The notes under the pieces were generated by a model, which ran no database searches, had not been told where the DNA came from, and saw only the letters and a program-made list of their open reading frames with translations. The translations under genes and the position numbers were made by a program. Positions 44,306-62,556 of a stretch of 64,000 nucleotides of DNA are shown in pieces. Source of the stretch: Nocardia beijingensis NBRC 16342 (GTDB lineage Bacteria > Actinomycetota > Actinomycetes > Mycobacteriales > Mycobacteriaceae); contig NZ_BDBC01000010.1 in assembly GCF_001612785.1 (NCBI RefSeq), positions 310,001 through 374,000 of the forward strand, in the 5' to 3' direction. The stretch's first letter is position 1. Every line of letters starts with the position of its first letter.

Positions 44306-44309
44306 GTCG

Positions 44310-44677
44310 TGGAGCTGCCGGGAATCGAACCCGGGTCCTCCGCCGCGTCTTCAGGGCTTCTCCGTGTGCAGTTCGCTGTGTCTCTACTCGGATCTCCGGG
44401 TCCCGCGAACAAGCCCGGATGACGATCCCAGTCGCTGTTCGATGTCCCGCCCTACTCCGCGACCGAGTAGGACGGTTAGCCCTCTAGCTGATGCCGGCAC
44501 CGGAGCCGAGGGCATGCCCCGGGCCGACAGAGACGCTCTGCTGATCAGGCAGCGAGAGCGTACTCGCGCTGATTGGAATCGGCGCTTAATTGGTTGCAAC
44601 GACGCTTACGGTGGTCTCTTGCCTGCACCGACACGCTTCCCCTGAATCAACGTACGCAGTCGAAACCGTTCAGCCCC
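44310..44677 (-). ncRNA. ssrA: tmRNA
   Basis: About 368 nt. The 5' end GGGGCTGAACGGTTTCGAC pairs with the 3' end CAGCTCC plus discriminator A, forming the Ala-tRNA-like part; the T arm GGGTTCGATTCCCGG is present. The tag reading frame at 44583-44545 encodes ADSNQREYALAA and then TGA, nearly the mycobacterial tag. It rescues stalled ribosomes together with SmpB, whose gene lies about 4.4 kb upstream on the same strand. CCA is not encoded. Confidence 0.97.
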
Positions 44678-45111: not shown

Positions 45112-46425
45112 TTGGCAGTTCGCACCATTCGGGACAGGTTGCTGCGCCTGTCCGCCCTCACCGTGATCGCCGGACTCGTCCTGACCGGGTGTTCCGCCCT
45201 GCGCGACAAGTCCGCCCAAGGCGCCGAACCCGGGGTCACCTCCGATCCGTGTCCGAACGCGGTGGACTCGCGTAAAGGATGCATCTATCTCGGCGTGCTC
45301 TCCGATCTGACGAGTGGGCCGTTCGCCGCGCTGGGCAAGGACATTCACAACGGCCAGCTGGCGTTCTGGCGGGCGGTGAACGAAGCGGGCGGGATCGGCG
45401 GCAAGTACGAGGTGGACATCGCCACCTACACCGAGGACACGAACTACGATCTGCAGAAGCACGCCGAGGCCTACCGGAGAATCGAGCCGCATATCCTCGC
45501 GCTCTCGATGAGTCTCGGCACGGTGCAGACGCAGAAGGTACTTCCCGAGATGGACGCGGCGAACATGGTCGCCATTGCCGGAACCCTGTGGTCGGGCTGG
45601 CAATTCGAGAACAGTGACAAGGGTCTGCTGCTGGAGTCCGGCTACTCCTACTGCTCGGAGGCGATCATCGCGCTGGACTGGATCGCCGAGCACGACGCCA
45701 AGCCGAGTTCGATCGCCACCGTCAGCTACCAGGGCGACTACGGCGGCGACTACGCCACCGGCGCGAAGAAGTGGGCGTCGGCCAACCGGGTGGACCTGGT
45801 GGCACAGATCGACACCGAGCCGAACACCCAGATCGGCAATCAGGACGCCGCGGTCGCCAAGATCCTCAACAGCCGAGCGGACCTCGTGCTCCTGGCGACG
45901 GGACCCGCGGAAGCGGGCGAGATCATGGGGAAGGCGGCGCTGGCCGGTTTCCCCGGCAAGTTCCTCGGCTCGGGCCCGACCTGGAACGGCGGCCTCCTAA
46001 AAAGCCCCGCCGCCTCCGCGATCACCGCTCGCTACAACATGACCTCACCGCTGGACGGCTGGGACGGCACCAGCGCGGGCGCCAAGAAGGCCAGGGCTTC
46101 GGCGACCAGGGAACCGTCCACATGGGGCTATAGCGCAGGCTGGATGTTTTCGTATCCGATGAAAGCGCTGCTCACCCGGGCGGTCAACGAAGGCAAGCTG
46201 ACCCGCAAGGGCGTCCGGCAGGCCGTGCACGGACTGCGTGTGGACTACGAGGGCGCGATTCCCGAACACACGTACGGCGCGGTCAAACCCGACCTCACCC
46301 GGCAGCGCGCCGTCATCGAAGCGCCCGATCAGACCGCGCCGCTGGGCGCGAAGACCCTGGCGCCCGACTATCACGGCCCGACTCAGGACCGCATCACCCT
46401 CAACGAGCCCTGCGTACAGCCGTAA
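45112..46425 (+). CDS. Solute-binding lipoprotein, branched-chain amino acid receptor-like (copy 1)
   Basis: 437 aa from a TTG start with AAGGAA upstream. The signal peptide ends in the lipobox LTGC (C27). The mature part starts with DPCPNAVDSRKGCIYLGVLS and has the type I periplasmic-binding fold (GPFAALGKDIHNGQLAFWRAVNEAGGIGGKY, then SYQGDYGGDYATGAKKW). Such proteins deliver ligands to ABC importers or act as sensors. No ABC permease or ATPase gene is nearby. A second copy follows after 11 nt. Confidence 0.87.
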   Translation: MAVRTIRDRLLRLSALTVIAGLVLTGCSALRDKSAQGAEPGVTSDPCPNAVDSRKGCIYLGVLSDLTSGPFAALGKDIHNGQLAFWRAVNEAGGIGGKYEVDIATYTEDTNYDLQKHAEAYRRIEPHILALSMSLGTVQTQKVLPEMDAANMVAIAGTLWSGWQFENSDKGLLLESGYSYCSEAIIALDWIAEHDAKPSSIATVSYQGDYGGDYATGAKKWASANRVDLVAQIDTEPNTQIGNQDAAVAKILNSRADLVLLATGPAEAGEIMGKAALAGFPGKFLGSGPTWNGGLLKSPAASAITARYNMTSPLDGWDGTSAGAKKARASATREPSTWGYSAGWMFSYPMKALLTRAVNEGKLTRKGVRQAVHGLRVDYEGAIPEHTYGAVKPDLTRQRAVIEAPDQTAPLGAKTLAPDYHGPTQDRITLNEPCVQP

Positions 46426-46436
46426 GCGAGCGACAT

Positions 46437-47735
46437 ATGCCTGTTCACAGTAAATTTCGTCGGCTACTTCGTCTCGTGGCCGCTCCTCTCGCGCTCGGGC
46501 TGGTCCTGACCGGCGGCTGTTCGAGCTCCTCGCCCGGCGCCGCACCCGGCGTCACCCGGGAACCCTGCCCCCACGCGATCCAGCGGGACAAGGGCTGCAT
46601 CTATCTCGGCGTTCTGTCGGACCTGAACAACGGCCCCTTCGCTCCGCTGGGAAAGTCCTTGCAGGAAGGGCAGATCGCGTTCTGGAACGAGGTGAACAAG
46701 CAGGGCGGCATCGGCGGATACGAGATCGACATCACGACCTACACCCGCGACACGGCCTACGATCCGCGCAGGCACGTCACGGAGTTCGAGAACATAGCCC
46801 CGCACGTGCTGGCGCTCGCGATGAGTTTCGGGACCGCGCAGACGCTCGCGGTGCTGCACGAGATGGACGAGGCGGACCTGGTGACCGGGGCCGGCACCCT
46901 CTGGTCGGGGTGGCAGTACCGCGCCACCGACCGTGATCTGGTGCTCGACGACGGCTTCTCCTACTGCACCGAAGCAGTGCTGGGCCTGGATTGGTTCGCG
47001 CAGAACTTCTACCAGCCGCGCACGCTCGGCGTGGTCGCCTATCGCGGGAACTACGGCGGTGATTACGCCAGCGGTGCGCTCAAGTGGGCGTTGGACAACG
47101 GCGCGACGATCACCGAGCGGATCGACACCGGGCCCAACACCGAAGTCGGCACGCAGGACTACCCGGTCGCCGAGATCATGGCCGACCCGCCCGACGTGGT
47201 CCTGCTGGCCACCGGTCCGGCCGAAACCGCCGAAATCGTCGGCAAACTCGCGAAATCCGGTTACACGGGCCGCTTCCTCGGATCCACCCCGACCTGGAAC
47301 AGCGCGCTGCTCAAGACACCGGCCGCACCCGCGCTCACGGCCCTGTACAACTACACCTCGCCGTTCGACGGCTGGGACGGTGCGAGCACCGGAGCCCAGC
47401 GCGCCAGGAGCGCCGCGCCGAGCGAACCGACGAACTTCGGCTACAACCTGGGCTGGGCGATTTCGTATCCGATGAAGGCGCTGCTCACCAAGGCGGCCGA
47501 GACGGGCAGCCTGGACCGGCCGACCCTGCGCAAGACCCTCGCCGGGCTCACTGTCGATTCCGAAGGCATGGCTGCGCCGCAGGTCTATGGGCGCGACGAA
47601 CCCGATGTCGCGGCGCAGCGAGCGGTGATCAACGTGCCCGACGCGTCCACGGCGCTGGGTTCGCGCACCGTGGTGGCCGACTACCGCAGCCCGACGCTGA
47701 AACGCATATCGATCCGGGAACCCTGCACCCGCTGA
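46437..47735 (+). CDS. Solute-binding lipoprotein, branched-chain amino acid receptor-like (copy 2)
   Basis: 432 aa, a clear paralogue of the preceding gene. It shares REPCPHAIQRDKGCIYLGVLSD, GPFAPLGKSLQEGQIAFWNE, TLWSGWQ, YRGNYGGDYASGALKW and SPFDGWDG. The lipobox is odd: LTGGC, with an extra Gly before C28 compared with copy 1, so lipidation may be inefficient. It arose by tandem duplication and has diverged strongly. Probably cotranscribed with copy 1. Confidence 0.86.
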   Translation: MPVHSKFRRLLRLVAAPLALGLVLTGGCSSSSPGAAPGVTREPCPHAIQRDKGCIYLGVLSDLNNGPFAPLGKSLQEGQIAFWNEVNKQGGIGGYEIDITTYTRDTAYDPRRHVTEFENIAPHVLALAMSFGTAQTLAVLHEMDEADLVTGAGTLWSGWQYRATDRDLVLDDGFSYCTEAVLGLDWFAQNFYQPRTLGVVAYRGNYGGDYASGALKWALDNGATITERIDTGPNTEVGTQDYPVAEIMADPPDVVLLATGPAETAEIVGKLAKSGYTGRFLGSTPTWNSALLKTPAAPALTALYNYTSPFDGWDGASTGAQRARSAAPSEPTNFGYNLGWAISYPMKALLTKAAETGSLDRPTLRKTLAGLTVDSEGMAAPQVYGRDEPDVAAQRAVINVPDASTALGSRTVVADYRSPTLKRISIREPCTR

Positions 47736-47740
47736 TCCGC

Positions 47741-48162
47741 GCGGCCGGGACAGCTCTGTCAGCGGAACGGCTCCGGGCGACGGGACAGCTCCGGCGGCGG
47801 GACAGGTGCGGGCGACGGAAAAGCTCCGGCAGCGGGATAGCCCCGGGCAACGAAACAGCCCCGGGCAACGAAACAGCCCCGGGCAGCGGGACAGCAGCGG
47901 GCGACGGAAAGCTCCGGCAGCGGAACAGCCCCGAGCGACGGAACAGCCCCGCGCAGCGAAACGGCTCCGGGCAGCGGAACCGCTCCGGGCGACGGGGCGG
48001 CTGCGGGCAGCGGAACCGCTCCGGGCAGCGGGGCGGCTGCGGGCAGCCGGAACCGCTCCGGGCAGCGGGGCGGCTGCGGGCAGCCGGAACCGCTCCGGGC
48101 AGCGGGGCGGCTGCGGGCAGCGGAACCGCTCCGGGCAGCGGGACGGCCCTGGGCGGCGGGGG
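47741..48162. repeat. 18-bp G/C-rich minisatellite, about 21 units
   Basis: Degenerate tandem units of CCGGGCAGCGGAACCGCT type run without a break between the lipoprotein and EamA genes. Unit lengths of 17, 18 and 19 nt are mixed, so no single reading frame is kept, which argues against a protein repeat. Toward the right end a 36-37-nt dimer alternating GGAACCGCT and GGGGCGGCT units repeats about four times, implying recent expansion. Confidence 0.9.
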
Positions 48163-48259
48163 CTGGAACCCAGCCGGTTCTCCCTCGCTCGGGGCGGCCC
48201 AGCGCCCGTTGCCCCAGTCGTCTCCCGCTCGCTCAGCACATCCCGGCGGGCCGGTGAAC

Positions 48260-49123
48260 TCAGGCCGCGGCGATGAGTGCGACCGCGACAAGGGCGAGGA
48301 GCAGGCCGAATTGCTGCTGCCGGTGGACCCGCTCGCCGAGCAGAACCATCGCCAGCAGCACGGTCACCGCCGGGTAGAGCGAGCCGATCACGCTCACCAG
48401 CGACAGCAGTGATCCGTGGAAGGCGTACAGCAGCGCCGCGTTGCTGATGACGTCCAGCGCGCTGATGTAGCAGGCCAGGCGGAGTGGTTCACCGCGCAAC
48501 CGCCCGAACTCTCCCGCGGTGAGCGCGGTGAGCCAGACCACCGCGGTGGCCGCGAGCCGCTGCATGAGCAACGGCCACAGTCCCGAGTCCGACGCGGTCT
48601 CGTGGAAGAAGACGAACGCGAGACCGTACGCGGCGCCCGAACCGATGGTCAGCGCGGCTACCTTGCGAGTGAACCGTAGTTCGCGTCCGCCGGTGATCTC
48701 CTCCGTTACGTCGTCCGGCGATTCCCGGCTCACCAGCAGCACGGCGACCAGGGCGAACACGATGCCGGCGAAGGCGAGCGGACCGGGGCGCTCGCCGGTC
48801 GCCAGCCCGGCGAGCACCGGAATACCCGCGACCAGCACCGCCGTCAGCGGCGACACGACCGCCATCGGACCGTCGGCCAGCGCCGCGTAGAACCACCACA
48901 CCGCGACGCCGCTCGCGACGCCCGCCGCCGTGCCCCACCACAGCGACGCCGCGTCCGGGCTGCCGGGCACGAACGGGAGCAACAGGAGAACCAGCAGCAC
49001 CGAGAACGGATAGGTGTAGATGACGACACGCAGCGCGGTCACCCGCCGCGACGCCACACCGCCGTAGAAATCGCTCACGCCGTAGCCGACCGCGGCTACC
49101 AGCGCGAGCAGGACGGCGGTCAC
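48260..49123 (-). CDS. EamA/DMT-family transporter
   Basis: 287 aa from a GTG overlapping the smpB stop by 4 nt. About ten hydrophobic segments in two repeats are present, starting [20 protein letters not shown] and ending [29 protein letters not shown] is the standard final EamA segment. Inner-membrane exporter of unknown metabolite. Probably translated with smpB, although a functional link is unlikely. Confidence 0.88.
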
Positions 49124-49593
49124 CGCATGCCTTTGACCCGCCGTCCTAGTTCGCGGGTGACCTCTCGCTCGGCGGTGCGCCGGGCCAGGTCCTGCCGCTT
49201 GTCGTAGTCCTGCTTGCCCTTGGCCAGCGCCAGTTCGACCTTCACCTTGCCGTCGGAGAAATACATCGACAGCGGCACCAGCGTCTGGTTGCCCTCTCGC
49301 GACTTGCCGACCAGCCGCTCGATCTCGCGCTTGTGCAGCAGCAGCTTGCGCACCCGGCGCGGCGAGTGGTTGGTCCAGGTGCCGTGGCTGAACTCGGGGA
49401 TGTGCAGCCCACGCAACCACACCTCGCCGTTGTCCACCGTCGCGAAGGCGTCCACCAGTGAGGCCTTGCCCTCACGCAGGCTCTTCACCTCCGTGCCGAC
49501 CAGCGCGATCCCGGCCTCGTAGGTGTCCAGGATCGTGTAGTTGTGCCGCGCCCGGCGGTTGGTCGCGATGACCTTGCGCCCCTTCTCCTTCAT
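49120..49593 (-). CDS. smpB: SsrA-binding protein SmpB
   Basis: 157 aa, the usual length. [49 protein letters not shown] and the C-terminal [15 protein letters not shown] tail identify SmpB, the tmRNA partner that places it in the ribosome. The ATG at 49593 is the start of the conserved N-terminus. Its gene is on the same strand as ssrA but about 4.4 kb from it, and on the opposite strand from ftsEX. Confidence 0.97.
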
Positions 49594-49649
49594 AACGGTC
49601 CACTTTAAGTGACCAGGCAACCGGATTATTCCCGCAGGTCGCGGACGCG

Positions 49650-49892
49650 CTAACCACCTTGATGCACTACGAGGTAGAGCGCGAGGACGGCGAGGAACGC
49701 TACGAGCAGCGCCACCGTCGACATTCGCGGCACCCCGGGGCGCTGCGGTGGCGGACTGCGGCGCAGCCACACGTTCTCGACCGCCGGATCGGTCCTGCTG
49801 CGCACATAAGGCGGCGTGTCCGGGGTCTCACCCCCCACCGAGCTGATGGAAAGGTCATCGCCGGCGTCACTGGAACCATCACCCGGTGCCAT
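49650..49892 (-). CDS. Small protein with a C-terminal membrane anchor, 80 aa
   Basis: An acidic N-terminus, [20 protein letters not shown], and a Pro/Arg-rich middle are followed by a single C-terminal helix, [20 protein letters not shown]. Tail-anchored topology is likely. Not recognised; 56 nt upstream of smpB on the same strand. Confidence 0.55.
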
Positions 49893-49959
49893 AGCCAGAA
49901 CGGTAGCCGCCGCGACGGCGGCACGCCGCAAATCTCGCGCCGCGCAACACAGTTGGAAC

Positions 49960-51039
49960 TCAGGCCAGACGCCGCCGGAACGCCTCGGCGGACGCGCCGG
50001 TCGCCGGATCGACCGTGTGCACGCCCAGGTCGACGCCGTCCTCGGTGAGTTCGAGCACCATGAAACCCAGCTCGTGGTAGTTCTCGAAGAGCGCACCGTG
50101 GCCCGCGCTCGCCGCGAGCCGCGGCTCCGCGCCCACCGTTTTCGCGGCCGCACCCGACACGATCTGCCTGGTTCCCTTCGACTCCGTGGTGGGTTCCAGC
50201 ACTTGCAGCGAGTGATCGTGCCCGGACAGGATGAACTGGCAGCGCCCGATCACGTGGTCTTCGAAAAAGCGTTTCACGTGCACGCCGTTGATCGGTTCCA
50301 GCGAGAGACCCTCGTAGCGGCCCGCGTCCCCGTGCGGGCCGTTGTTGAGATACGGGTGGTGGGTGCAGGCGATCTTCCAGGTGGCGGGCGAGTCGGCGAT
50401 GGCGTGATCGAGCCAGTCGCGCTGCTCGTTCATGAACTGGCCGTCGACCGCCCAGTACGGCGAGAAGACCGGCGGCACGTAGGCCGCCAGCGGGTTGACG
50501 TCGAGGACGAAGAACTCGACGACGGGGTCGCGCTCCGGAATCCGCACCGAGTAGTAGCGGCTCGGCATCCACCAGCGCTGGGAGTTCGCGTGGTATTCCA
50601 CCTCGGCGTTGCCGCGCAGCAACCATCCGCCGTCACCGCCGAGAACCGAGCTGTTGTCGTGGTTGCCCAGCACCATCAGCCAGGGGAAGTCCAGTCCGGC
50701 GTTCGGGTTTTCGAACTTCTCGGTGAACTGGACGTCGACCGCGCTCTCGGGCCCGTGCTCGTAGATGTTGTCGCCGAGGCCCAAGGCCAGCGAGACGGGT
50801 TCGCGGCCGTGCAGCGCGCGCATGGCGTCGGCGACCGCCCACTGGGTGCGGGTGCCCGTGCCCGCGTCGCCGGTTACCAGCACTCGCACCCGGCGCTCGG
50901 CCGGGAAGGGGAACTTGGTGACGCCCTCGGCGACGGGTACCGCATGCGCGGGCGTGCGCCCGGCCAACGTGGTCCCGGCCGCGAGGGTGGCCGCACCGGC
51001 CAGGAACGTCCTGCGCCCGATCGTCTGGCTGCGGCTCAC
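49960..51039 (-). CDS. Tat-exported metallophosphoesterase (purple acid phosphatase-like)
   Basis: 359 aa from a GTG placed 4 nt after GGAGGA. The N-terminus IGRRTFLAGAATLAAG is a twin-arginine signal, so the enzyme should be exported folded. The calcineurin-type metal motifs appear in order: TGDAGTG, GLGDNIYEHG, LGNHDNSS, CTHHPYLNN and SGHDHSLQ. It hydrolyses a phosphoester outside the membrane. A pho-box could not be verified. Confidence 0.9.
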   Translation of the reverse strand: MSRSQTIGRRTFLAGAATLAAGTTLAGRTPAHAVPVAEGVTKFPFPAERRVRVLVTGDAGTGTRTQWAVADAMRALHGREPVSLALGLGDNIYEHGPESAVDVQFTEKFENPNAGLDFPWLMVLGNHDNSSVLGGDGGWLLRGNAEVEYHANSQRWWMPSRYYSVRIPERDPVVEFFVLDVNPLAAYVPPVFSPYWAVDGQFMNEQRDWLDHAIADSPATWKIACTHHPYLNNGPHGDAGRYEGLSLEPINGVHVKRFFEDHVIGRCQFILSGHDHSLQVLEPTTESKGTRQIVSGAAAKTVGAEPRLAASAGHGALFENYHELGFMVLELTEDGVDLGVHTVDPATGASAEAFRRRLA

Positions 51040-62087: not shown

Positions 62088-62556
62088 GGGTCGGATTCTA
62101 ATCAGGGCGCCCGTGTCGGCTACCTCGTCGACATCGCCTGTCGCCGCCATGCGTCTCACCGCCGTCACGTTCGGCACAAGCTCCGCAGCTCGCTCCCCCA
62201 CGGCGCAACCTCATCCGAGCGTTCGACATCTGCGGCACCGGTAACGAATCGGCATCGATCGTGGCTATGGCCTTGGAGTGGGGCGAATCGGCGGCGGTAA
62301 TTCCGGCTATCTCGGGTCGAGAGGTTCGCGTCCGTTCCGAAAGCGCAGCTCATCGCGTTGCACGGCATGGCATGAGGCTGGACAGGGAGGACGGCCGGAC
62401 CCCCGGACGCAACTTTGGGCACTTGTCCAGCAAGGCGTGGATCACCCGCGTATGCTGCACCTCGACGCACTTCTTACTCCGCAGTAAGATAGCCTTACTC
62501 CGGAGTAAGATAGCTCGGGAAAGACCGCACCAACCCATCCGAGAAAACAGGTGATG
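62088..62556. other. Intergenic stretch upstream of the acyl-CoA dehydrogenase gene
   Basis: About 470 nt with no supported gene. The right end holds two operator-like palindromes. Confidence 0.5.
62473..62509. promoter_or_regulatory. Two tandem operators before the acyl-CoA dehydrogenase genes
   Basis: CTTACTCCGCAGTAAG (62473-62488) and CTTACTCCGGAGTAAG (62494-62509), the latter a perfect 16-bp palindrome, lie 21 bp apart centre to centre, two helical turns. They precede the likely start by about 50 nt, a good place for a repressor such as a TetR-type fatty-acid regulator. Confidence 0.78.

Follow-up and report, generated by a model that had tools for sequence, protein, structure and literature searches.

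Mycobacterial interspersed repetitive units (MIRU-VNTR) are intergenic tandem repeats that belong to a dispersed family and have longer units, and bidirectional hairpin terminators are a known class of structure between convergent genes. Copy number at bacterial VNTR loci varies within a species. In the available part of one source minisatellites are small variable segments for strain typing, and replication slippage between short repeats is invoked there for variable segments in general (PMC2884548). For strains of N. seriolae, tandem-repeat events are low and consistent according to the available part of the report (PMC13186243). The locus described here appears in none of the titles or abstract openings among the matches listed for the literature on Nocardia tandem repeats, VNTR and minisatellites.

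The array lies in the window, the whole stretch of 64,000 nucleotides of Nocardia beijingensis NBRC 16342 that was analysed. Like bacterial intergenic minisatellites and VNTR loci it consists of head-to-tail degenerate units of about 18 nt, is noncoding, occurs in one lineage and contains a homogeneous part. The variation known for VNTR loci is found within species, whereas the window array was compared between species, with one genome per species. With MIRU-VNTR it shares the form of an intergenic tandem repeat in a related actinobacterial genus, but unlike a MIRU it has no second noncoding copy that was found in its own genome. The gap also holds, on the side of the EamA gene, a G+C-rich inverted repeat that is common to the window genome and eight of ten close relatives and in this resembles a bidirectional hairpin terminator. 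In contrast to such terminators, the inverted repeat adjoins the array and is not the array itself, and it is weakened in the window genome. The array is of a known kind: a real, noncoding, lineage-specific minisatellite.

The array and its neighbouring genes

Two TRF rows cover the array, one with period 18 (47760-48159, 22.3 copies, 74% matches, score 327) and one with period 88 (score 362), while the best score in 500 dinucleotide shuffles of 47741-48162, which is 78% G+C, was 94. The tandem array reported in the preliminary description is therefore real. TRF, shuffles and the unit parse agree that the tandem repetition exceeds chance, and the unit length falls within the roughly 10-100 nt of minisatellites. 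The earlier count of about 21 units has to be raised to 22 according to the hand parse; the lengths of 17-19 nt given then were correct. The right part of the array is more homogeneous than the left. From u13 to u21 the lag-2 identity is 0.89-1.00 against an adjacent identity of 0.67-0.78, which bears out the 36-37-nt dimer noted towards the right end.

Table 1. Features of the PBP-EamA gap and its flanking genes in the window.
Feature	Position	Strand	Description
Peripla_BP_6 substrate-binding lipoprotein gene (PBP)	46437..47735	+	Second of a tandem pair; left convergent neighbour; Pfam
Degenerate minisatellite	47758..48152	.	22 units of 17-19 nt (hand parse and TRF); core like CAGCGGAACAGCTCCGGG
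Left part of array, u01-u12	47758..47970	.	More diverged; mean pairwise identity 0.72; u06 = u07
Right part of array, u13-u21	47971..48134	.	Dimeric; two alternating unit types, 36-37-nt dimers
Imperfect inverted repeat, possible composite stem	48138..48203	.	Last unit and right flank; arms 48138-48162 and 48179-48203
Weakened copy of the shared inverted repeat, candidate bidirectional terminator	48186..48220	.	Alignment, folds, arm pairs
EamA-family transporter gene	48263..49123	-	Right convergent neighbour; Pfam

Pfam assigned Peripla_BP_6 to both tandem lipoproteins, EamA to the transporter and SmpB to the product of the next gene. The site of the array is thus, as described before, the 3' gap of a convergent pair formed by a Peripla_BP_6 gene on the plus strand and an EamA gene on the minus strand. 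From the PBP stop codon to the EamA stop codon this gap measures 524 bp in the window genome and the array lies inside it, outside the genes and without signal in a crude coding test. The wider surroundings include a tmRNA gene (44309-44677, minus strand, by ARAGORN) and the SmpB gene (49123-49770, minus strand), which are about 4.4 kb apart; the two tandem Peripla_BP_6 lipoprotein genes (+) and the EamA gene (-) are located between them, and the end of smpB coincides with the start of the EamA frame.

The same gap in other Nocardia

For measurement of the gap 53 loci were supplied, of which 38 were usable, representing the window genome and 20 others (some genomes were fetched repeatedly). 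The other 15 had no EamA gene beside PBP in the available stretch (L068, L071-L073, L087-L091, L093-L097, L099). Also left out were EamA loci with no PBP in reach (13 loci: L038-L045, L050, L052-L055) and seven distant paralogues (L056-L062). Gaps were compared at L046-L049, L051, L063-L067, L069, L070, L074, L075, L080, L092, L098 and L100-L105. All 13 loci returned for the PBP protein in the scan of named genomes were titled Nocardia. Five of the ten close relatives were equated with their G-numbered genomes through identical gap sequences.

The convergent pair recurs in 20 other genomes, and the array was absent from the gap in all of them; the gap ranged there from 1 to 315 bp compared to 524 bp in the window genome. 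Among the close relatives it measured 315 bp in N. gamkensis, 184 in N. niwae, 177 in N. arthritidis, 168 in N. exalbida, 165 in Nocardia sp. CY41, 161 in G061, 145 in N. araoensis, 104 in N. abscessus, 85 in N. abscessus BJ06-0146 and 33 in N. asiatica. In ten relatives only 1-7 bp separate the two genes (G087, G146, G057, G064, G127, G032, G045, G094, G016, G038). Gaps of 33-315 bp belong to the abscessus/niwae/araoensis group and those of 1-7 bp to ten other Nocardia. The sole TRF row with a score of at least 30 in the relatives' gaps longer than 20 bp was a 19-bp trace of 1.9 copies in N. niwae, and at a score of at least 60 the array was present in the window genome only among the 43 loci L063-L105. 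In L034-L062 an 18-nt array like that of the window was not found; other arrays occur in L040, L041 and L050, and short two-copy rows in L059 and L060. The arrays of L040 (789-955, G058) and L041 (837-955, G047), both from related Nocardia, have 37-50-nt units unlike the window's unit and are located about 0.55-0.7 kb past the 3' end of EamA.

In a PBP tree of 30 distinct sequences the window genome pairs with N. araoensis (G039) with support 99/98, and the gap of this gene-tree sister has no array. When the two gaps are aligned the right side can be matched, and the left side over some dozen bases only. A seed of the array was sought in eight sister gaps and recognised in none, as the similarity each time fell short of the 5% level against 200 mononucleotide shuffles (19/200 at the lowest). 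The presence of the array differs between lineages, as for a VNTR, in a comparison that is between species only (0/20 relatives). In the simplest history, the array was gained on the window genome's own branch, and it is most likely young.

A dispersed MIRU-like family was not detected: the search of the own genome, with 40 of 162 first-look candidates scored, gave one other match. This match, C68:43-188, was rejected as a second copy, as it lies in a proline-rich, coding-looking low-complexity frame (GC3-GC2 0.36). Weak matches to the array occur in at least 62 of 148 genus genomes, the window genome included, with four candidates scored per genome. Of 29 loci followed in other genomes, 22 are in a frame with GC3-GC2 of at least 0.21 and seven are not (L004, L006, L010, L018, L019, L021, L029). 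L004 (1504-1665, Nocardia G132) carries 23 perfect copies of the 7-nt unit CGGGCAG, without a clear coding signal; so many perfect heptamers in a row could vary greatly in number.

A scan of 464 kb, made up of 400 kb of the same contig and the window, gave 14 array regions with a score of at least 80. Nine are in coding-looking frames (GC3-GC2 of at least 0.26). Five have no clear coding signal, namely the window array, L108:1636-1888, L109:13683-13847, L113:19490-19551 and L123:16697-16785, and the units of the latter four differ from those of the window array. On the window's contig, L108 1636-1888 has 53-nt units and L109 13683-13847 has 32-nt units. The other contig arrays, together with those in L040 and L041, indicate that sporadic minisatellites recur in Nocardia. 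Within the window itself a 21-nt unit occurs twice at 62473-62514, 95% alike (CTTACTCCGCAGTAAGATAGC).

Folding, the shared inverted repeat and termination

The preliminary description had suggested that the array may fold as RNA, which the folding results do not bear out. Compared to 100 shuffles the whole array is not special, with a z of 0.31 on the plus strand and of -1.48 on the minus strand, where it is slightly better (7/100 as good), and in this it does not have the fold expected of an intrinsic terminator. Rfam gave no match at the gathering score in 46000-50000. At 48161-48175 a compact hairpin of 6 bp was noticed by eye; its fold is ordinary (z -0.56 on plus, -1.26 on minus). The composite repeat of Table 1 is the best inverted repeat that the window genome has at the gap's right end; 2 of 100 mononucleotide shuffles did equally well. 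The stretch 48136-48226, which was chosen around this stem, folds with z -2.02 on the plus strand (6/200 shuffles as good) and z -0.35 on the minus strand. This fold is the main result for a structural role, and a modest one.

The inverted repeat shared with the relatives beats shuffles in seven of eight of them (z -2.7 to -5.4), the exception being N. gamkensis (z -0.25); the stretches folded for it and for the composite stem were chosen around the stems, which flatters these z values. The window copy gives a bulged fold of -15.5 kcal/mol with z -0.76 (+) and 0.01 (-). N. asiatica and N. abscessus BJ06-0146 were left out of the alignment and folds: the best repeat in the 33-bp gap of the former is 5, and in the latter a single arm remains, with 53 of 100 shuffles as good. 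When the best repeat was sought over the whole gap, the number of mononucleotide shuffles per 100 that did as well was 1 for N. niwae and N. exalbida, 2 for N. abscessus, 6 for N. araoensis, CY41 and G061, and 37 for N. gamkensis. It was 6 for N. arthritidis as well, where the best repeat is another one. In this search the inverted repeat does not reach strong significance in all species. Its arms, which were picked by eye, pair in 90 of 96 cells. A two-sided change is found in one of 12 pairs, which occurs as G-C and A-T with G-T forms; the remaining changes break pairs, and covariation is therefore thin. From its place and shape, the shared inverted repeat is a better terminator candidate than the array.

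A role of the array in termination should nevertheless be considered. Convergent transcription might be blocked or ended by the array, or by its right edge plus the flank, which would thereby have replaced the weakened inverted repeat. Such a replacement would be consistent with the good folding of the inverted repeat in seven of eight relatives and not in the window genome, with the composite repeat that joins the last unit to the flank and its plus-strand fold, with two terminator-like matches that the array holds on the minus strand (0.4 expected), and with short inverted repeats read by eye within several units. The ordinary fold of the whole array and the minus-strand value of the composite stretch argue against it, as does the favourable choice of the folded stretches. 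Furthermore, the paired genes are only 1-7 bp apart in ten relatives and 33 bp apart in N. asiatica, which shows that these genomes need neither the array nor the inverted repeat. We regard this explanation as unlikely. An extended version, in which the minisatellite grew beside a decaying bidirectional terminator, pairing between edge and flank replaces the latter and the unit number tunes transporter/lipoprotein read-through, is very unlikely.

Other explanations and the origin of the array

According to the preliminary description the mixed unit lengths break every reading frame. This is correct for periodicity, but not for stop codons, since several frames are stop-free. Frames of 442 aa (+) and 591 aa (-) cross the array, and a single long open frame could in principle be that of a gene with a low-complexity tail. 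Where these frames overlap the PBP gene, however, they are out of frame with it or antisense to it, and units of 17, 18 and 19 nt disrupt the frame. In addition, a crude test of codon-position G+C gave no coding-like value for the best frame across the array (GC3-GC2 = 0.03), and the relatives' gaps lack the array. Successive units occupy all three phases, which leaves no periodic protein encoded, and a repeat protein, already dismissed in the earlier account, was rejected in view of the frame shifts between units and the absent coding signal. A gene with a low-complexity tail is extremely improbable. The array could also be a DNA element that is bound by a protein or forms a replication-stalling structure, in view of the many copies of a similar motif and the excess of G over C on the plus strand (187 vs 143). 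A further hint is the G4Hunter maximum of 1.36, which exceeds the window's 99% point (1.16), although it stays below the 99.9% point (1.56). Four runs of three G or C with loops limited to 7 bases do not occur in the array, and a G-quadruplex was rejected on that account. Considering also that the sole other match in the own genome is a coding-looking low-complexity stretch, a DNA element is highly improbable. Equally improbable is a draft-assembly artefact, at least in the unit number. The assembly is a draft of 113 contigs, and short reads can yield a wrong count for dimers as nearly identical as those at the right end, but most units differ from one another and the flanks of the array join the expected genes, as in the relatives.

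In view of the above, we consider it very probable that the array is a lineage-specific intergenic minisatellite and a VNTR candidate. The 3' gap would have contained a short G+C-rich seed that was duplicated and then extended via replication slippage or unequal exchange, the latest growth possibly taking place at the right end in steps of 36-37 nt. The array may be tolerated because there is no reading frame in the convergent gap, whose length among relatives lies anywhere between 1 and 315 bp. The array is probably without a dedicated function and, as a putative VNTR, likely varies in copy number within the species.

The array is a candidate typing marker for the window's Nocardia species. 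It would be of greater importance only if it affects termination between the PBP and EamA genes. As it stands, it illustrates clearly how a minisatellite was gained on the branch of one species, the site being readable in the sister and in other relatives.
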